This document shows, one piece after another, positions 618 to 11,685 of a DNA stretch of 38,635 nucleotides. The stretch covers positions 1 through 38,635 of the forward strand of contig JADFMN010000015.1 in the NCBI GenBank assembly GCA_022563855.1. The letters are read 5' to 3'. Below the pieces are notes generated by a model. That model searched no databases. It was not told the origin of the DNA and saw only the letters and a program-made list of their open reading frames with translations. Source of the DNA: Armatimonadota bacterium. Lineage in GTDB: Bacteria; Armatimonadota; Fimbriimonadia; Fimbriimonadales; Fimbriimonadaceae. Both the position numbers and the translations under genes were made by a program. The stretch's first letter is position 1. Each line of letters starts with the position of its first letter.

Positions 618-1694
618 TCACGAACCGAAGAATAGACGCGCCAGTTCGCCTTGCTGTTCCCCGTCGAGCAAGAACCCGTCGTGACCGTGCGGCAAATCGA
701 TTTCGTGCCACTCTGCCGGTCGCCCAGCCTCCTCAGCCAGCCGGAGCAACTCTTGGCTCTGGCTCGACGGATACAGCCAGTCGCTGGTGAACGACGTGAA
801 CATGTATTCGCTCTGCGATCCGTCGAAGCTCTGACAATCGTAGTAGTCCAGCGCGCGGGTCAGATACAGGTAGCTGTTGGCGTCAAATCTGCGGGTGAAC
901 TTCGATGCCTGGTAGTCGAGATAGCTCTCAACTTGAAACTCTGTGCCTAGCGTCCAGTCGGCAACCGGTTTGTCCTGAAAACCGCGACCGAACTTGGTGG
1001 CGAAGCTCTCGGCGCTCAGATATGAGATGTGCCCCATCATCCTGGCGACGCCCAGCCCGCCCGCCGGCTGCTCGTCCAACGCGTACTCTCCGTTCTTCCA
1101 GGCGGGATCGCGCATGATCGCCTGTCGACCGACCTCGTTGAGCGCGATCTGCATGGCGTTGTGCGCCCGTGCGCAGCCCGTCATCCACACCTTGCGCACG
1201 GAGCCGGGTTTTCTCAAGCTCCACTCAAGCGCCTGCATTCCGCCCATGCTGCCGCCGCACGCGCCGAGGAGAGTATCGATCCCGAGGCTTCGAACGAGCC
1301 GGAACTGGCACTCGACCATGTCGCCGATCGTGATGATCGGAAACCGTCTTCCCCAGGTTCCGCCGTCTGGGTGCCGCGACGGCGGTCCGGTCGATCCTCG
1401 GCATCCACCGAGACAGTTCGAGCCGATCACGAAGAACCTGTCCGTGTCGATCCCTTTGCCCGGGCCGACCATCGCGGGCCACCAATCCGCGCAGTCGGCA
1501 TCGCCGCTCAGCGCGTGACAAACTAGGATAGCGTTATCCCGATCAGAGCTGAGCTTCCCCCAGGTCTGGTACGCAATGGCGACGCTGGGAATCTCTGCGC
1601 CCGACTCGGTAACAAGGCGACCGACGTCACTGTACATCCGTTGGTCTGAGCGCTCGCCCTGCTCTTTCGTAGCCGGGTCGGCTTCGTGACCCAT
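618..1694 (-). CDS. metX: Homoserine O-acetyltransferase (MetX family)
   Basis: An alpha/beta-hydrolase fold acyltransferase of 358 residues that acylates the hydroxyl of L-homoserine, normally from acetyl-CoA, at the entry to methionine synthesis in the cytoplasm. Visible family features are AYQTWGKL near residue 41, HALSGDA near 60, the nucleophile elbow GGSMGG with Ser149, Asp305 in FTSDWLYP and His338 in PHGHDGF, which together form the catalytic triad. The length is normal for the family. The ATG at 1692-1694 is used here; Met20 (MYSDVG) is an alternative start, since the first 19 residues are polar and poorly conserved in type. The start lies only 2 nt after the stop of the preceding pilT-like gene. 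Members of this family can use succinyl-CoA or act on serine, so the exact acyl donor is not certain. No metY or metZ is present in the window. Confidence 0.9.
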   Translation of the reverse strand: MGHEADPATKEQGERSDQRMYSDVGRLVTESGAEIPSVAIAYQTWGKLSSDRDNAILVCHALSGDADCADWWPAMVGPGKGIDTDRFFVIGSNCLGGCRGSTGPPSRHPDGGTWGRRFPIITIGDMVECQFRLVRSLGIDTLLGACGGSMGGMQALEWSLRKPGSVRKVWMTGCARAHNAMQIALNEVGRQAIMRDPAWKNGEYALDEQPAGGLGVARMMGHISYLSAESFATKFGRGFQDKPVADWTLGTEFQVESYLDYQASKFTRRFDANSYLYLTRALDYYDCQSFDGSQSEYMFTSFTSDWLYPSSQSQELLRLAEEAGRPAEWHEIDLPHGHDGFLLDGEQQGELARLFFGS

Positions 1695-1696
1695 GG

Positions 1697-2920
1697 CTAA
1701 TCCCGAGTGTAACCCGGGCGGTTGGGCTGGCCTTGGACGCCGCTGACGGGCGGCGCCTCCGGCACATCTTCTACTACCGGCGGAGCCTGAGTTGGGCCGC
1801 TATCCCTGCGTTTTCGGTCGCCACCCGCCTTCGCATTCTTTATCACTGCGTCTTCGCTCAAGTGCAGCATGCGGGTGAACTCTCCGGGTTCCTTCGCGTG
1901 GCTCCTAGCGTCCTCCTTCGTTACCATGCCATCCATCACCAGCCTGACAAGGCTTTGATCCAAGGAGAACATCTTCTGCTTGAGGCCGGTCTGAATGATC
2001 GAACTGATCTGGTAAGACTTGTTCTCACGAATGTTGTTGCGGACGGCTGAAGTCGCGTTCAACACTTCAAACGCTGCGGTTCGACCGTCGCCGTCCTTTA
2101 GCCGGACGAGGGTCTGTGACACAACGCCCAGCAGGTTGACGGAGAGCTGCATCCTAATCTGTTGCTGCTGGTGGATCGGGAATACGTCAATGATGCGATC
2201 CACTGTTTGTATGGCGTCCACGGTGTGCAGAGTCGCAAAAACGAGGTGGCCGGTTTCAGCGGCTGTGATCGCCAGGTGGATAGTTTCAAGATCGCGCATT
2301 TCGCCGACGAGGATCACGTCTGGATCCTGACGCAATACATACTTTAGCGCGTACCGAAAGGCGTGCGTGTCCCGTCCGATCTCGCGCTGGTTGAGCAGTG
2401 CCAGATGGTCGTCGTGAACGAACTCGATCGGGTCTTCGACGGTAACGATGTGCACGCTACGGGTACGGTTGATTCGATCGATCATCGCGGCGAGCGTGGT
2501 CGACTTTCCTGAGCCCGCTGGGCCGGTGACCAGAACAAAGCCGCGCGGTCGCTCGACGAAGCCGTAGCAGGCCTCCGGAAGGCGCAACTCCTCCATCGTC
2601 TGGATGTACAGGGGGATCACGCGGAATACAGCCTGCTCGTGTTCCCGCTGCCGGAACAGATTTCCGCGAAATCGCGCGACGCCGGAAATCTCGAGCGCGA
2701 AATCAAGCTCCTGGTCCCTGTGGAACGCAGAGATTTGCTCGGGAGGAAGGATTGCGCCGATGCCATCGCTGAATTCCTCAGGGGTGAAATGGGGCACGTC
2801 CTCCAGCTCGTGCAAATGCCCGTAAATGCGAACGTAAGTCTTGCCGGTGTCGGTCTTGAGGTGAAGGTCCGACCCGTTCAGCGCAACCGTGCGCTCAAGC
2901 AACTGCTTAACTTGTAGCAC
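1697..2920 (-). CDS. PilT-like type IV pilus retraction ATPase (third of three)
   Basis: A 407-residue hexameric secretion-type ATPase of the PilT/PilU family, which powers type IV pilus retraction at the inner face of the cytoplasmic membrane. The N-terminal PAS-like domain starts with GSDLHLK (residues 16-22), the Walker A motif is GPAGSGKST at 133-141, the acidic and Walker B regions follow as VEDPIEF and ILVGEMRD (203-210), and the His box is GHLVFATLHT. The C-terminal tail, from about residue 365, is an extra Pro/Gly/Arg-rich stretch that the two neighbouring paralogues lack. The start is GTG at 2918-2920, overlapping the end of the preceding paralogue by 14 nt, so translation is probably coupled. 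It could be a PilU-like accessory motor; sequence alone does not separate PilT from PilU here. Confidence 0.9.
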   Translation of the reverse strand: MLQVKQLLERTVALNGSDLHLKTDTGKTYVRIYGHLHELEDVPHFTPEEFSDGIGAILPPEQISAFHRDQELDFALEISGVARFRGNLFRQREHEQAVFRVIPLYIQTMEELRLPEACYGFVERPRGFVLVTGPAGSGKSTTLAAMIDRINRTRSVHIVTVEDPIEFVHDDHLALLNQREIGRDTHAFRYALKYVLRQDPDVILVGEMRDLETIHLAITAAETGHLVFATLHTVDAIQTVDRIIDVFPIHQQQQIRMQLSVNLLGVVSQTLVRLKDGDGRTAAFEVLNATSAVRNNIRENKSYQISSIIQTGLKQKMFSLDQSLVRLVMDGMVTKEDARSHAKEPGEFTRMLHLSEDAVIKNAKAGGDRKRRDSGPTQAPPVVEDVPEAPPVSGVQGQPNRPGYTRD

Positions 2921-3998
2921 GTGTCGCCTCCAGCAAGCCCTGTTTCGTCGCCAGACGCTTGAACTCTTCGGGATCCGACGATTTCGCCAGCGCTTGTTCG
3001 TATTCTATAATTCCCTCAGAGAGCAGCCCCAGCAAGCCCGTGTCGAGCGTTTGCATGCCGAACTGCGCTCCAGTCTGAATGTCCATATAGAGTTGGTGCG
3101 TCTTGGCGTCACGGATCAGCGTTCGGACCGCCGGCGTAGCGATCATGATTTCGAAGGCCGCCACTCGGCCCTTTTTGTCGGCTGTCGGAAGGATCGTCTG
3201 CGATATGACCGCTTGCAGCGTCACGCCCAGCTGCGTTCGAATCTGCTCCTGTTGATCTGGCTCGAACACGTCGACGATACGATCGATCGTCTGAGCTGCG
3301 TCCACGGTGTGGAGCGTCGAGAACACGAGGTGTCCGGTCTCCGCTGCAGTGATCGCCAGCTTGATAGTCTCCAGGTCGCGCATTTCGCCTACCAGGATCA
3401 CGTCCGGGTTCTGCCGCATGATGTGAAGCAATGCTTCAGCGAACGAACTCGTATCCGTGCCGACTTCGCGTTGATTGATGATCGACATCTTGTCGGAGTG
3501 CACGTACTCTATCGGATCCTCGATTGTTACTATGTTCTTCCGTGAGGTTATGTTTATGTGGTTGATCATCGCTGCAAGCGACGTCGACTTGCCTGAGCCC
3601 GTTGGGCCGGTGACCAGAATCAAGCCTCGTGGCAGCAACGACAGTTTTTCGGCGACCTTTGGAATCCTGAGATCCTCTATTGTCCGAATCTTGTACGGAA
3701 TCAGGCGGAATAGCGCGCCCAGCTTGCCTCGCTGCCAGAACATGTTGACGCGAAACCTCGCAAGTCCTTCCAAGGCGTAGGACATATCGAGCTCAAGGTC
3801 CTTCATCAGCCGCTGCTTTCGCTCGTCCGAGAGAACCTCAAAGAGCATGTTCTGCAGTTCGTCGACTGTGAATGGAGGCTGATCCACACGAATCAATTCT
3901 CCGTGAAGGCGAATGATCGGCGGATTTTCCGCCTTCAAGTGGAGATCGCTGGCCTCGATCTCGACGATGTGTCTTAACAGTTCGTTTAGTCTCGACAT
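2907..3998 (-). CDS. pilT: PilT-like type IV pilus retraction ATPase (second of three)
   Basis: This 363-residue protein is the most canonical PilT of the three. It has the N-terminal ASDLHLKA motif (residues 16-23), Walker A GPTGSGKST at 131-139, VTIEDPIEYVH, the Walker B segment ILVGEMRDLET, and the His box GHLVFSTLHTVDA. The length matches typical PilT (about 345-370 residues). It is expected to form a cytoplasmic hexamer that depolymerises the pilus during twitching motility. It begins 12 nt after the upstream paralogue ends and overlaps the next one by 14 nt. The remaining pilus assembly genes (pilB, pilC, pilM-Q, pilin) are not in this window. Confidence 0.93.
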   Translation of the reverse strand: MSRLNELLRHIVEIEASDLHLKAENPPIIRLHGELIRVDQPPFTVDELQNMLFEVLSDERKQRLMKDLELDMSYALEGLARFRVNMFWQRGKLGALFRLIPYKIRTIEDLRIPKVAEKLSLLPRGLILVTGPTGSGKSTSLAAMINHINITSRKNIVTIEDPIEYVHSDKMSIINQREVGTDTSSFAEALLHIMRQNPDVILVGEMRDLETIKLAITAAETGHLVFSTLHTVDAAQTIDRIVDVFEPDQQEQIRTQLGVTLQAVISQTILPTADKKGRVAAFEIMIATPAVRTLIRDAKTHQLYMDIQTGAQFGMQTLDTGLLGLLSEGIIEYEQALAKSSDPEEFKRLATKQGLLEATRATS

Positions 3999-4010
3999 TC
4001 CACCCTCGTC

Positions 4011-5090
4011 CTATCGACGCAACAACTGTTTCAACTCCGATACGATACCTGCATAGTTGATCGCGATCTCCTCAGTTATGATCCCAGCTTTGACGTATCG
4101 CGCCAAGCCTTGGTTCATCGTCTGCATTCCCCAGAATCCACCTTCGTTCATTAGATGGTACAGGTCGCCAAACGCTCCGTCCTCGATCGCCTTCGATACC
4201 GTGGGCGTGCAGATCAGAATCTCGGGAACGACTACGCGCCCAGCACCGTCAGCGCGCGGCACCAGTTTCTGTGCGATGATCGCCCTGAGTGATCCGCCAA
4301 GGCGTTGGCAGAGGTGCCTCTTCTCGTGCGGCGGGAACATGTTGACGATTCTGTCGAGAGTGTCGTACGCGCTCGACGTGTGCACCGTGGAGAAGACGAG
4401 GTGGCCTGTTTCACTTGCTTGGAGAGAAGCGTGCATCGTGGTGACGTCGCGCATCTCACCGATCAGAATCACATCGGGGGCTTCTCTCACAACCGCGCGC
4501 AGCGCCGGGAAGAAATCCTCCGTATCAAGGCCAACCTCGCGCTGGCTGATGTACGCCACTTTGTCGTGGTGCTCGATCTCAAGAGGATCTTCGATTGTGA
4601 CGATGTGCACCGGTCGCGTTTCGTTGATGATATCGAGCAGCGCCGCCAGGGTCGTCGTTTTGCCGCAGCCCGTCGGCCCGGTTACAAGCACGAGACCCTG
4701 CCGGTGCTTGGTCAGTTCACCTAGAACCGCCGGCATTCCGAGCTCTTCCAGGTTCTTGATCCTCGATGGAATGATCCGGCAAACGGCAGCGATCGTCCCT
4801 TTCTGCCGATAAATGTTCGTGCGAACTCGGCATTTGCCCTCGACTGAGAAGGCGATATCCATCTCCATCGAGTTCTCAAAGCGCTTGCTCTGCCTCTCGG
4901 TCATAACGCTGCCAATCAGGCGCAGGACGTCAGCCTCCGACAACACGGGCCAATCGCCCGGCAGGGGCGCCACGGAGGCGTGCTGCTTCATCATCGGCTT
5001 GTGATCCGCCTTGAGCATCACGTCCGAGGCCACGACCTCGTAGCCGGCTTCTATCAGGTCGAAAAGTTGTATGGATGCCGCGTCTTGCAT
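4011..5090 (-). CDS. Divergent PilT-like ATPase (first of three)
   Basis: A 359-residue PilT/PilB-superfamily ATPase. Core motifs are intact: Walker A GPTGCGKTT (138-146), VTIEDPLEIEH, Walker B ILIGEMRDVTT and His box GHLVFSTVHT. The N-terminus is divergent: the usual SDLHLKAG signature appears as SDVMLKADHKP (22-32), so the dimerisation/regulatory domain differs from its two neighbours. ATPase activity is well supported; the exact motor role is inferred. It follows the membrane-anchored protein at 5124-5825 after 33 nt and precedes the second pilT by 12 nt, which indicates one operon. A specialised or regulatory pilus motor is one reading. Confidence 0.88.
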   Translation of the reverse strand: MQDAASIQLFDLIEAGYEVVASDVMLKADHKPMMKQHASVAPLPGDWPVLSEADVLRLIGSVMTERQSKRFENSMEMDIAFSVEGKCRVRTNIYRQKGTIAAVCRIIPSRIKNLEELGMPAVLGELTKHRQGLVLVTGPTGCGKTTTLAALLDIINETRPVHIVTIEDPLEIEHHDKVAYISQREVGLDTEDFFPALRAVVREAPDVILIGEMRDVTTMHASLQASETGHLVFSTVHTSSAYDTLDRIVNMFPPHEKRHLCQRLGGSLRAIIAQKLVPRADGAGRVVVPEILICTPTVSKAIEDGAFGDLYHLMNEGGFWGMQTMNQGLARYVKAGIITEEIAINYAGIVSELKQLLRR

Positions 5091-7441: not shown

Positions 7442-9178
7442 ATGCCTGAAGTCGATACCAGATACAAGCAGTGGACCGTTGCTGAGGTCGACGACCGGGC
7501 AGTTGACACGTTGTCGCATGAGTTGGGCATCAGCCCCCTCGTGGCATCAGTACTCCTCAGCCGCGGTATTTCTGATCCGCTGCAGGCCTCGGCGTATCTC
7601 AATCCAAGCCTGCAGGACCTGCACTCTCCTTCCCTGCTGCCTGACTTCGATCCGGCGGTCGGCGAAATCCTCGGTGCCAAAGAGAGCGGAAAGCGGGTGT
7701 TCGTACATGGAGACTACGACGCCGATGGAGTCACGAGCGCGGCCCTCTTCACAAGGTTCCTGCGCAGACTCGGCTGCGACGTAGTGCCGCACGTACCGCA
7801 TAGAACGCGCGAAGGGTACGGCATCCACCTAGATGCGGTCAAAATGGCCGCTGAGGCTGGCTGCAAGCTGTTTCTGACGTGCGACTGCGGCATATCTGCT
7901 CACGAGCAAGTCGCCGCGGCTAACTCGGCTGGAATGCGAGTCGTCGTTACCGACCACCACGAAGTCGGTGAAACCTTGCCTCCGGCTGCTGCTGTAGTCA
8001 ACCCTCACAGACGCGATTCGCAATATCCGTTCAAGCACTTAAGCGGCGTTGGAGTCGTCTTCAAACTTTGCCAGGGCATCACACAAGAGCTGAAGATCGA
8101 CGAAAGCCGTTTCTTCCGCGCCTACCTGGACCTTGCGGCGCTTGGAACGATCGCCGACGTAATGCCGCTCATCGACGAGAACAGGATTATCGCTAGCCAC
8201 GGCTTGACAAGCATCAAGCACAGCAAGAAGCCGGGGCTGCGATCTCTTCTCAGAGTGTGCGAGCTCGATGACCCAAGTCGAAAGATCACTGCCCGCAACG
8301 TCGGGTTTCAGATCGCGCCGCGCATCAACGCAGCAGGGCGCATGGCAGATTCGCGCCTTGCGCTCGACCTGCTGCTGGAAGACGATCCTGAAAAGGCAGA
8401 CGTGATCGCAGAGCTGCTGGACGAAACGAATCGACAGCGACGCGTCGAGCAAGCTCACGCCTATGATGAGGCGGTCGAACTCGTCGAACAAACCCACTCC
8501 CCGAGCGACCGCGCTATCGTTGTGAGTCGTGAGGGGTGGCACCCAGGTTTGATCGGTATCGTGGCCGGCAAACTTGCGGAGCAGTACTACAGGCCGACCT
8601 TCGTCGTGACGATCGACGAAAACGGCCATGCTCGCGGATCGGCGAGGTCCATCCCTGGCTTCAACTTGGGAGCAGCCATCGACGCAGCTAGGCCACATCT
8701 CTCCAGCGGAGGCGGCCACGAGCAAGCTGCGGGGTTTTCGCTCGAGGCCTCTAAGCTTGAGGGTTTCGCCCTAGCGATGAAGTCGTATGCGAACTCGGTG
8801 CTGACCGACGACGACCTCGTGCCGCGCATCGAGATCGACGCGATCATCGACCCGAGCGAAGCGTCCAACCCACGGGTTGTCGAGGAACTCGCCGCGCTGG
8901 CGCCGTTTGGACAGGGCAATCCCGAACCGACGTTTGGCTGCCTCGGTCTGACGACGTCGAATATAGCTCCGACGAGCAACCCGGCTCATGTGCGGCTATC
9001 TCTGATTGACACGAGCGGCACACCTCACAAGGCTATGGCGTTCGGCATCGGCGAGGGGCTCTCCGCACTCGGCAACGGGGCGAAGATCGACATCGTGTTC
9101 AGGCCGGACGAAAACGTGTTTCGAGGCAAGGCCGAGTTTCGCTGGCTGATCGACGACTATCGACCGAGCGGAAACTGA
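7442..9178 (+). CDS. recJ: Single-stranded-DNA-specific exonuclease RecJ
   Basis: A 578-residue DHH-family 5'-3' exonuclease acting on single-stranded DNA in recombination and repair. The N-terminal DHH domain carries HGDYDADGVTSA (about residues 88-99), CDCGIS and TDHHEV; the C-terminal DHHA1 domain carries the GG-motif SGGGHEQAAGFSLE; an OB-fold region follows, with APFGQGNPEP and the nucleic-acid binding end. The length matches typical RecJ (about 560-580). The ATG at 7442 lies 42 bp after nusG without a clear ribosome binding site. Its 3' end overlaps the convergent gene at 9157 by 22 bp. Confidence 0.95.
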   Translation: MPEVDTRYKQWTVAEVDDRAVDTLSHELGISPLVASVLLSRGISDPLQASAYLNPSLQDLHSPSLLPDFDPAVGEILGAKESGKRVFVHGDYDADGVTSAALFTRFLRRLGCDVVPHVPHRTREGYGIHLDAVKMAAEAGCKLFLTCDCGISAHEQVAAANSAGMRVVVTDHHEVGETLPPAAAVVNPHRRDSQYPFKHLSGVGVVFKLCQGITQELKIDESRFFRAYLDLAALGTIADVMPLIDENRIIASHGLTSIKHSKKPGLRSLLRVCELDDPSRKITARNVGFQIAPRINAAGRMADSRLALDLLLEDDPEKADVIAELLDETNRQRRVEQAHAYDEAVELVEQTHSPSDRAIVVSREGWHPGLIGIVAGKLAEQYYRPTFVVTIDENGHARGSARSIPGFNLGAAIDAARPHLSSGGGHEQAAGFSLEASKLEGFALAMKSYANSVLTDDDLVPRIEIDAIIDPSEASNPRVVEELAALAPFGQGNPEPTFGCLGLTTSNIAPTSNPAHVRLSLIDTSGTPHKAMAFGIGEGLSALGNGAKIDIVFRPDENVFRGKAEFRWLIDDYRPSGN

Positions 9179-10197
9179 CTGCCAATCGGCGTTAAACCGA
9201 GCGAGACCTGACCGCCGACCAGCATTACGTTGACGCTCGTCTTTGTCAATCCGCGCATATACCGTATTGTAATCGTGTCGCCGATCGACTTGCTGAAGAG
9301 AATCGAAGCCAGCTCCACCGGATCGTTGACCGATGTGCCGTTCACGTCCAGAACGACATCGCCGGCCAACAGCCCTGCAAGACCGGCCGGCGAGCCGGGC
9401 ATCACGGACACTAGCAGCACGCCCCGGCCAGAAGTCGACGCTTTGAAGAAAATACCGATCGTAGGATGCTGCACGCGCCGCATCGGACTCTTGAAGCCAA
9501 CGACGACTCTTCGCAGCACGTCTTGCGAAATCGCGTACCCGACTGTAAGCCCTTTGGGGCCGAACTTGGCGGGAGCGAAACCGCTCCTGATATCGCTTAA
9601 CGACTGCTCCTGCTGAGATTCTAGAGCCCTTTGGCTTTTCGTCAGGGTTGCGCCGAGGACGGCGATCAACTCTCCGTTGCTGGCAAACACCATCGATCCC
9701 CCTATTTTGCCGGCTGAGGATTCAAAGCGAATTTCGCTCAGCGGCATATACCGGAGCGAAGGCCTCATCACGCCAACGCGACTGTCACTGACGAACTCGC
9801 CGCGAATCGGGCCTTGCGCCGTTGCAACCGTGACGGGTGCACCTCGCTCTAGCGCAGACTTGGAAATTGCGATCGGCCGCCGCCTGCCCATCTCCCAGTA
9901 CGACGGTCGAAGAAGCGCGAGCTGCGTGTGCTCGTCCGACGCGATTAAGAGCATCGACATCGGCAGGCTGCCGTCTTCGAACTTTGCGAGAGTCTGTATG
10001 CCCTGGACCAAGCTCATATGGGTCAAGAACAGGCCAGAATCGTCGATCAGCGCTGCCACGCCGATCGGCTGGTTGCCGTGATACAGATACGCGACGGATT
10101 GGCGAACGAGCTGCCACGTGGTCGCCTCCGTGGATTGGGCCTGCCCGAGCAGGCCGGCGCCGATCGCTAGAAAACTAGCCGCCGAAGACAACATCAC
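9157..10197 (-). CDS. HtrA-like protein with PDZ domain, catalytic triad apparently lost
   Basis: A 346-residue exported protein (signal peptide about 1-22) with the layout of a DegP/HtrA protease: a trypsin-like region (about 25-190) and one PDZ domain (about 246-330, including VMPGSPAGLAGLLAGDVVLDVNG spread over 265-287). By my alignment by eye the three catalytic positions are changed: the His of the TNNHVV-type motif becomes Ser62 in FLTHMSLV (His60 is two residues off), the Asp of D-L-A-V-L becomes Gln92 in TQLALL, and the Ser of GNSGG becomes Ile165 in GKIGG. This suggests a pseudoprotease that binds peptides. The start is GTG at 10197 or the adjacent ATG at 10194. It overlaps the end of the anti-sigma-like gene by 23 bp and so belongs to the sigma factor operon. 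Confidence 0.75.
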   Translation of the reverse strand: MMLSSAASFLAIGAGLLGQAQSTEATTWQLVRQSVAYLYHGNQPIGVAALIDDSGLFLTHMSLVQGIQTLAKFEDGSLPMSMLLIASDEHTQLALLRPSYWEMGRRRPIAISKSALERGAPVTVATAQGPIRGEFVSDSRVGVMRPSLRYMPLSEIRFESSAGKIGGSMVFASNGELIAVLGATLTKSQRALESQQEQSLSDIRSGFAPAKFGPKGLTVGYAISQDVLRRVVVGFKSPMRRVQHPTIGIFFKASTSGRGVLLVSVMPGSPAGLAGLLAGDVVLDVNGTSVNDPVELASILFSKSIGDTITIRYMRGLTKTSVNVMLVGGQVSLGLTPIGSQFPLGR

Positions 10198-10960
10198 CGA
10201 ACGTTTCTACCTCAGTGGCGACGAATGCGCCCGTGTCTGGATCCTCAACATAGTCGATCACGACCAGATTATCCGAGTACTCGTCGTCTTGCGAGCCTGT
10301 AGCTGCTAAGAAAGTCGGAAAGACCTCGGAGTCAGGCAGCGGGTCAAACCTCACGAGGCTCATACCGCCCTCGGAGCCACGTTGCCAAGGGGGGACACCC
10401 CACTCTTCGGTGTCATCGGCCCGGCTCCCTGCTCGACTTGCAGAGTTGTTCGACGGCCTAAATCGACCCACGTTCGTCGCCACTGATGCGTCCAAAACTG
10501 CGACCAACGAGTTACCGTTCGCAGCGCCAGACTCGGAAGGTTCTGTGTCTCCATTCTCATCGGGATTCACGATGTCGCCATCAGCTGGCGGCAGAACGCC
10601 TTCTAAGCCTGATTCTGGATCACCGGAATCGAGGCTACTCACTGTATCACCGGGAACAAGAACGTCGAGTTGAGAGCCGAAGAAGACGACCAGAATCGCT
10701 GCAGCAGCGACAATCGCAAACGTCCACGGCTTGGACTGTCTGCTAGGTACGACGCCTTGGTTCAGGATGGCGTCGCGCAGGCGCTCGGACGACATCTGGC
10801 ACTCGGGGACTTCGCGCAGCGCCTTCAGGCCTTCGCGCACCTTCTTGACCTGCTCGACCTGTTCAAACTCCTCTGGAGACAGGGAGTCAAGCTTGGCCTG
10901 GTCCCCTGGCGAAAGCTCGCCAAATCCGGCCTTGATGATCAAATCTCTTCTGCTCTTCAT
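10175..10960 (-). CDS. Single-pass membrane protein in anti-sigma factor position
   Basis: I place the start at the ATG 10958-10960, which shares the ATGA overlap with the sigma factor stop and has a purine-rich binding site GGAAGAGG upstream; an upstream in-frame extension to 11056 would lie inside the sigma gene and reads as arginine-rich shadow. The 261-residue protein has a charged cytoplasmic N-terminal part (1-78, including LSPGDQAKLDSLSPEEFEQV), one membrane segment (about 79-98), and an acidic, low-complexity outer part with no recognised domain. There is no zinc-binding HxxxCxxC motif, so it is not an ordinary ZAS-type anti-sigma. The anti-sigma role is inferred from the gene order (ECF sigma, then single-pass membrane protein, then HtrA-like protein). 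Confidence 0.7.
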   Translation of the reverse strand: MKSRRDLIIKAGFGELSPGDQAKLDSLSPEEFEQVEQVKKVREGLKALREVPECQMSSERLRDAILNQGVVPSRQSKPWTFAIVAAAAILVVFFGSQLDVLVPGDTVSSLDSGDPESGLEGVLPPADGDIVNPDENGDTEPSESGAANGNSLVAVLDASVATNVGRFRPSNNSASRAGSRADDTEEWGVPPWQRGSEGGMSLVRFDPLPDSEVFPTFLAATGSQDDEYSDNLVVIDYVEDPDTGAFVATEVETFGDVVFGG

Positions 10961-11604
10961 TCTGCCTCTTCCATCTCCTTCAGCAGCGGGGCTACGCGAG
11001 TCTGCAACGCGCGCCGGGCCCGCAATACGCGCAGCTTTGCTCCGCCGACGCTGCAACCAAGAGTAGCGCCCATGTCCTTGTAATCCATTTCCTCGATGTC
11101 TCTCAGCACGATCACGTTCCGGTGGTGATCTGGCAGCGCGCTGATCGCCCTGCGCAGAATGTCCTTCAACTGTTCTCTTTCCAGGTTCTTAATGGGATCT
11201 TCGGCATTTCCGACGGTCATCCAGCTCAACGCCCCAGCCGATTCCTGTAGCTCGAGCCTTTGACGGCGACGAATCATGCGGCCGCGATCGGTTCCTAAGT
11301 TCGTCGCAATACGAAGCAGCCAGGTTGTGAACTTCGCCTCGTCCCGATACCTGTGCAAGTTCTGGTAAGCCCGGACGAAGACCTCTTGCACGATATCCTC
11401 AGCGTCGTCTCGCCCCTGCGTCATTTGATACGAAAATCGGTACACCAGGGCGCGGTGGCGCTCGAACAGCAGTTCGAACGCTGTATATTCGCCAGCTTTC
11501 GCCTTCCGCACCAACAGCTCATCCGAATCACGATCTGACGCGGTCCCTAGGTGGGAGGTTCTAGCCTGCACCTGCAAATTCAGCCTCAAGGCGTGCCTCG
11601 ACAT
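10957..11604 (-). CDS. ECF-type RNA polymerase sigma factor (RpoE-like)
   Basis: A 215-residue sigma-70 family protein with only regions 2 and 4. Region 2 (about 40-105) contains LLFERHRALVYRFSYQM, DAEDIVQEVFVRAYQNL and FTTWLLRIATNLGTD, the usual core-binding and -10 recognition parts. Region 4 (about 145-205) contains ISALPDHHRNVIVLRDIEEM and a helix-turn-helix with YKDMGATLGCSVGGAKLRV. It is expected to direct transcription of an extracytoplasmic stress regulon when released from the membrane protein encoded next. The ATG at 11604 lacks a good ribosome binding site and the N-terminal 30 residues are unusual in length, so a later start is possible. Confidence 0.92.
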   Translation of the reverse strand: MSRHALRLNLQVQARTSHLGTASDRDSDELLVRKAKAGEYTAFELLFERHRALVYRFSYQMTQGRDDAEDIVQEVFVRAYQNLHRYRDEAKFTTWLLRIATNLGTDRGRMIRRRQRLELQESAGALSWMTVGNAEDPIKNLEREQLKDILRRAISALPDHHRNVIVLRDIEEMDYKDMGATLGCSVGGAKLRVLRARRALQTRVAPLLKEMEEAE

Positions 11605-11685
11605 GATCTTACATGGATTTGACGGATTCGTGGTCAGATCGTTACTCTCTCACGGGGTTGAAACAGCATAATTCTGCGAATCTGC

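Follow-up and report, generated by a model that had tools for sequence, protein, structure and literature searches.

A conserved Fimbriimonadales operon encoding an ECF sigma factor, a predicted class I anti-sigma factor and an HtrA-like pseudoprotease

Why should an operon that encodes an ECF sigma factor and a candidate membrane anti-sigma factor also encode a protein with the fold of an HtrA protease and a ruined active site? The question is posed by the minus strand of the window (the whole stretch of 38,635 nucleotides that we analyzed, from an Armatimonadota bacterium), in which the frames for an ECF sigma factor, a membrane protein with one transmembrane segment and an HtrA-like protein follow one another between positions 9157 and 11604 and overlap tightly (Table 1). 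The arrangement recalls the RpoE-RseA-RseB(-MucD) and AlgU-MucA-MucB-MucD systems, which likewise combine an ECF sigma factor, a membrane anti-sigma factor, a periplasmic partner and a terminal gene for an HtrA-fold protein, but the trio in the window has no RseB gene, and its HtrA-fold protein has no catalytic triad. A search of the literature available to us for a pseudoprotease together with an anti-sigma factor, or for an ECF factor together with HtrA, found no relevant paper.

Organization and distribution of the operon

The first gene product was recognized as an ECF sigma factor by its Pfam matches (Sigma70_r2, 4e-18; Sigma70_r4_2, 2.3e-11), which cover regions 2 and 4 only, and by a TIGR02937 score of 102.7 bits against a cut-off of 42.9. 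The original prediction had read the stop codon of the sigma gene and the start codon of the membrane-protein gene as sharing an ATGA, and this we confirmed at 10960–10957. It had also given the second and third genes a 23-bp overlap, which stands if the GTG at 10197 is used as the htrA-like start; the start conserved among relatives, however, is the ATG at 10194, which shortens the overlap to 20 bp, exactly the length found in most of them. No RseB/MucB gene lies between these two overlapping genes. At its other end, the htrA-like gene (minus strand, ending at 9157) meets recJ (plus strand, ending at 9178) tail to tail, with a 22-bp overlap at 9157–9178.

Table 1. Features of the operon and their positions in the window.
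Feature	Positions	Strand	Basis
Predicted ECF-type autoregulatory promoter, GTAAC-N16-CGTC (-35/-10)	11621..11645	-	Fixed spacing across loci
ECF sigma factor, 215 aa	10957..11604	-	Pfam Sigma70_r2/r4_2; 49–68% identity to orthologs
ATGA, sigma stop (TGA) and anti-sigma start (ATG)	10957..10960	-	Sequence; same -4 junction in most relatives
Predicted membrane anti-sigma factor, 261 aa, zinc-less ZAS descendant	10175..10960	-	HxxxCxxC orthologs in f2–f5; hhalign; zf-HC2 in relatives
Predicted cytoplasmic anti-sigma domain, residues 1–70	10751..10960	-	Helices in AlphaFold model
Transmembrane helix, about residues 80–97	10670..10723	-	Hydropathy peak; model helix 80–95
Conserved periplasmic C-terminal tail, residues 230–261, VVI..D..TGA..A.EV....DVVFGG	10178..10273	-	f1/f5 conservation; codon usage
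Anti-sigma 3′ end and htrA-like start, 20-bp overlap	10175..10194	-	Most relatives have ATG at overlap 20
Secreted HtrA-like pseudoprotease (345 aa) with signal peptide, degenerate trypsin domain and a single PDZ domain	9157..10194	-	AlphaFold model; structure matches
Lost triad: Ser61 (10012–10014), Gln91 (9922–9924), Ile164 (9703–9705)	9703..10014	-	Alignments
PDZ domain, residues 244–325, conserved loop HP-T-I-G-I	9220..9465	-	PDZ_2 in 40/40 relatives; Gly247

The operon is predicted to have an ECF-type promoter of its own. A G[AT]AAC-N16-CGTC motif with fixed spacing was present upstream of the sigma core at 75 of 83 loci, and a similar but looser pattern was observed at 33 of 60 loci, compared with about 5 of 60 in a Markov-shuffle control; we take motifs of the GTAAC-N16-CGTC type to resemble the SigM/SigW-type promoters of Bacillus. 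Because the strict pattern was no more common in three genomes than its reversed control, and because the sigma operon was the only target downstream of it common to the three genomes compared, we claim no stress regulon.

Neighborhood comparison recovered the trio in the same order at about 70 named loci, whose record titles nearly always read Armatimonadota or Fimbriimonadales, and in at least four GTDB families of the Fimbriimonadales (Armatimonadota; soil and hot-spring bacteria). The order is kept in the window's own family (f1) and in f2 (to which the hot-spring genome HR15 belongs), f3 and f5; in f4 the contig breaks off after the sigma gene, a gene for a zinc-bearing anti-sigma factor and the first part of a frame for a secreted HtrA-like protein. 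Nearly all genomes of the window's family, as well as f5, encode full-length HtrA homologs with an adjoining membrane-protein gene. Where a family genome is complete enough for a judgment, the gene order and the overlap are almost always present, far beyond chance. The sigma and HtrA genes were not found in one 1.5-Mb genome (G029), and no close ortholog was seen in the sole genome of the same genus, which is 68% complete. The sigma alignment served for scanning; the HtrA alignment has no stretch conserved enough for a scan, and a scan of genome contigs with the HtrA-like protein alone returned no relative. The five best HtrA matches inspected from beyond the order (G188, G221, G106, G233 and G125) retain the active-site motif GNSGGPL and have no adjoining match to an ECF sigma factor. 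The original prediction was to be given up if the trio proved unique to this genome; instead, a conserved operon of sigma factor, anti-sigma candidate and pseudoprotease recurs across the Fimbriimonadales, and the identity and order-wide conservation of its three parts are strongly supported.

This conservation bears on one rival account of the locus, that three genes are neighbors by coincidence or that the operon is decaying and its protease gene is a pseudogene. The lost catalytic residues are what such an account would have in its favor, but it is contradicted by the retention throughout the order of open frames, gene order, overlaps and promoter, and by full-length identities of 23–41% with conserved core motifs, and we give it next to no credence.

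One record, JADZEW010000008.1, is titled 'Methanoregulaceae archaeon' and carries the full Fimbriimonadales trio; its organism name is probably wrong.

A predicted anti-sigma factor and its periplasmic tail

The membrane protein of the window had no Pfam match, and the zinc motif HxxxCxxC was absent from it and from all 31 sampled members of f1. The motif is present, however, in 18 orthologs, comprising all f2, f3 and f4 sequences and four of the seven from f5 (it is missing from the other three), a distribution that parsimony on the sigma tree explains with four changes. The zinc-less and zinc-bearing sets were matched to each other by hhalign at 97% (E 1.2e-10), several of the orthologous membrane proteins match zf-HC2, and the top PDB profile match, a weak one, was the anti-sigma factor RslA (3hug_B, E 0.19). 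The AlphaFold model of the window's membrane protein places four helices at the N terminus (residues 2–12, 18–25, 29–47 and 58–68; pLDDT 80–97), followed by the transmembrane helix (80–95), a disordered outer part and two tail strands (232–239 and 246–251); a Foldseek search with this whole, mostly disordered model yielded nothing useful.

An N-terminal helical domain (seen in the model and the profile match) and a gene adjoining the sigma gene are the marks of class I (ASDI) anti-sigma factors, and to judge from its sequence relationships the protein is a ZAS-derived member of class I minus the zinc ligands, which would presumably bind and inhibit its cognate sigma factor. Like RslA, RsiW, RskA and RseA (class I, ASDI/ZAS), it has a four-helix N-terminal domain ahead of one transmembrane segment, and its orthologs bear the zinc motif; it departs from them in the loss of the zinc ligands from its own family and in a distinctive conserved periplasmic C-terminal tail. 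We had also considered an anti-sigma factor of a new or unknown kind and dropped the idea once the HxxxCxxC-bearing orthologs had come to light. Class I groups mix zinc and non-zinc members, and among the anti-sigma domains of this class about 44% are without the zinc motif (PMC7406223). The zinc loss seen here is thus an ordinary change, and the description of the protein as an unusual anti-sigma factor does not survive.

An acidic outer domain had been proposed as well. The window protein does have one (net charge -26), but the median in its relatives is -4, so the acidity is lineage-specific and we dropped it as a conserved trait. The part conserved outside the membrane is the C-terminal tail, which the original prediction had not included. 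In f1 and f5 the segment from about -30 to -11 relative to the C terminus (V-V-V-I....D..TGA..A.EV) is conserved, and all four synonymous codons occur at its G-18, A-17, A-14 and T-19, which shows that selection acts on the protein in this segment ahead of the gene overlap. The six terminal residues fall inside the overlap and show strong codon bias; because they coincide with the start of the htrA-like gene, their conservation is attributable to neither frame alone and may reflect the second one.

The ending of the tail changes with family. In f2 the tail reads YLP[IV].YG instead, and all f2 anti-sigma factors examined (L207–L219) end in -SF (for example VYSF, VFSF or IICSF), whereas those of f1 and f5 end in -GG or similar, with GG being an unusual PDZ ligand. 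The PDZ domains of DegS and AlgW bind YxF and WVF peptides (PMC8545111), and the f2 endings come close to the YxF peptides of DegS, a resemblance of sequence alone.

A protease fold without its chemistry

The AlphaFold model of the HtrA-like protein (pLDDT 87.7) has the trypsin-like barrel and C-terminal PDZ domain of HtrA (S1C) proteases, the latter also detected by Pfam (PDZ_2, 2e-13), and it matched known structures over its full length (Rv0983, Z 25.7; Mycobacterium tuberculosis HtrA, Z 24.9; DegS, AlgW, MucD and DegP, Z 22–24). The signal peptide was judged by eye from the sequence. The S1C triad, on the other hand, is gone: Ser61, Gln91 and Ile164 stand in place of the catalytic His, Asp and Ser. 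No sequence has the His or the Ser in an alignment of 106 (a number that includes genomes present in two collections), and the Asp is retained in some. In f2 the sequence GE[PQS]GAPL or GSP replaces the expected GNSGGPL, and the f3 proteins similarly lack the catalytic His and Ser. The proposal that the protease is dead is thus supported throughout the order.

Conservation instead peaks at an RY.PL.E.R.E motif before the old serine loop, at the linker between the protease and PDZ domains and at the PDZ carboxylate loop (HPxIG), and Gly247 is invariant (105 of 105). The binding parts have therefore been retained while the chemistry has gone, which suggests that the protease now serves as a sensor or shield and no longer as an enzyme. 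Such reuse has a parallel in MamO, a degenerate HtrA-like protein of magnetosome formation, which also retains the HtrA-family fold without protease activity, although its pathway is unrelated and has no link to a sigma factor.

The sigE – rseA-htrA-tatB locus of Mycobacterium has sigma, anti-sigma and HtrA genes in the same order, and its HtrA, Rv1223, is one of the best structural matches listed above. The locus differs from that of the window in several respects: M. tuberculosis HtrA is a serine protease described as essential, co-transcription does not link sigE and rseA, and RseA, which is redox-sensitive, is phosphorylated by PknB and then removed by the cytoplasmic ClpC1P2 (PMC10027907).

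A possible shielding role beside a canonical circuit

The genome of the window also carries a canonical RpoE-type operon (contig C7, 126000–133500, at 1260–4962 therein on the minus strand; L385). It encodes an ECF sigma factor 34% identical to that of the window, a zinc-bearing anti-sigma factor (HLNCCPRC; zf-HC2, 1.7e-9), an RseB-like protein (PF03888, narrowly below the Pfam threshold) and an HtrA that is membrane-anchored, with two PDZ domains and intact triad motifs. The same genome encodes two HtrAs with intact triads, Omp85 and, beside dxr, RseP (TIGR00054, 191.7 bits against 147.55). In RpoE-type systems a site-1 protease and RseP remove the anti-sigma factor, and that of the window may be cleaved in a similar way. 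Because the canonical operon is present, the trio would work beside a conventional system and not in place of one.

We put at roughly one in two the probability that the trio is an envelope-stress module of the Fimbriimonadales, forming a second, parallel circuit in which the pseudo-HtrA is the periplasmic partner that shields the anti-sigma tail. The ECF sigma factor would be held at the membrane by the class I anti-sigma factor, and the secreted pseudo-HtrA, made in translational step with it, would bind its C-terminal tail, either by the PDZ domain or in what is left of the substrate cleft, and block site-1 cleavage. When envelope proteins misfold, their exposed C termini would displace the pseudo-HtrA by competition, allowing an active protease from elsewhere in the cell, and then RseP, to cut the anti-sigma factor, after which the freed sigma factor would amplify its own operon. 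What we infer in this scheme is the activity of the anti-sigma factor, the binding of tail to pseudoprotease, whether that binding restrains or promotes the response, and the nature of the signal. Such a holding mechanism fits best with a peptide-binder that is dead but conserved and whose gene is translationally tied to that of an anti-sigma factor with a tail. Against it count the overlap of the last six tail residues with the htrA-like start, the GG endings of f1 and f5 and the lack of promoter targets shared beyond the operon. The original prediction of a dead protease that detects peptides and regulates the anti-sigma factor is a plausible one.

The pseudo-HtrA might instead be an effector, a proteolysis-free periplasmic chaperone of the stress response that is co-transcribed for autoregulation only. 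Elsewhere, the MucD/HtrA genes that come after sigma operons have effector roles, the canonical operon in the same genome ends its series of sigma, anti-sigma and RseB-like proteins with an intact-triad HtrA, and the fold of the pseudo-HtrA is itself intact. Yet a chaperone of this kind would leave unexplained both the constrained tail of the anti-sigma factor and its translational overlap with the htrA-like gene in almost every genome, and we consider it possible but rather doubtful.

We think it less likely still that the protein is a positive co-factor, DegS-like but dead, which on binding peptides brings in an active HtrA, or switches one on, so that the anti-sigma factor is cut. The two intact-triad HtrAs could supply the enzyme, and mixed trimers of pseudo- and active protein are conceivable because HtrA proteins act as trimers, but there is no genetically linked partner.

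In DegS-type sensing, peptide binding switches a protease on. The same fold, kept throughout the order without its active site and beside the anti-sigma factor that it would otherwise have cut, offers a natural test of whether HtrA regulation can proceed by binding alone, with the intact-enzyme operon of the same genome as a ready comparison. More speculatively, and on the strength of a canonical second operon observed in the window's own genome only, the whole order might run a parallel pair of sigma-E-type circuits, the first built on an active HtrA and the second on a dead HtrA turned sensor, whose PDZ domain would hold the anti-sigma tail as a built-in ligand until the tails of unfolded outer-membrane proteins displace it and switch the circuit on. 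This would invert the logic of DegS, with peptide binding serving competition and not the activation of an enzyme; we regard this extension as a tentative one, with the odds against it.

Elsewhere in the window, three genes for T2SSE-type secretion/pilus ATPases lie in a row on the minus strand (1697–5090).
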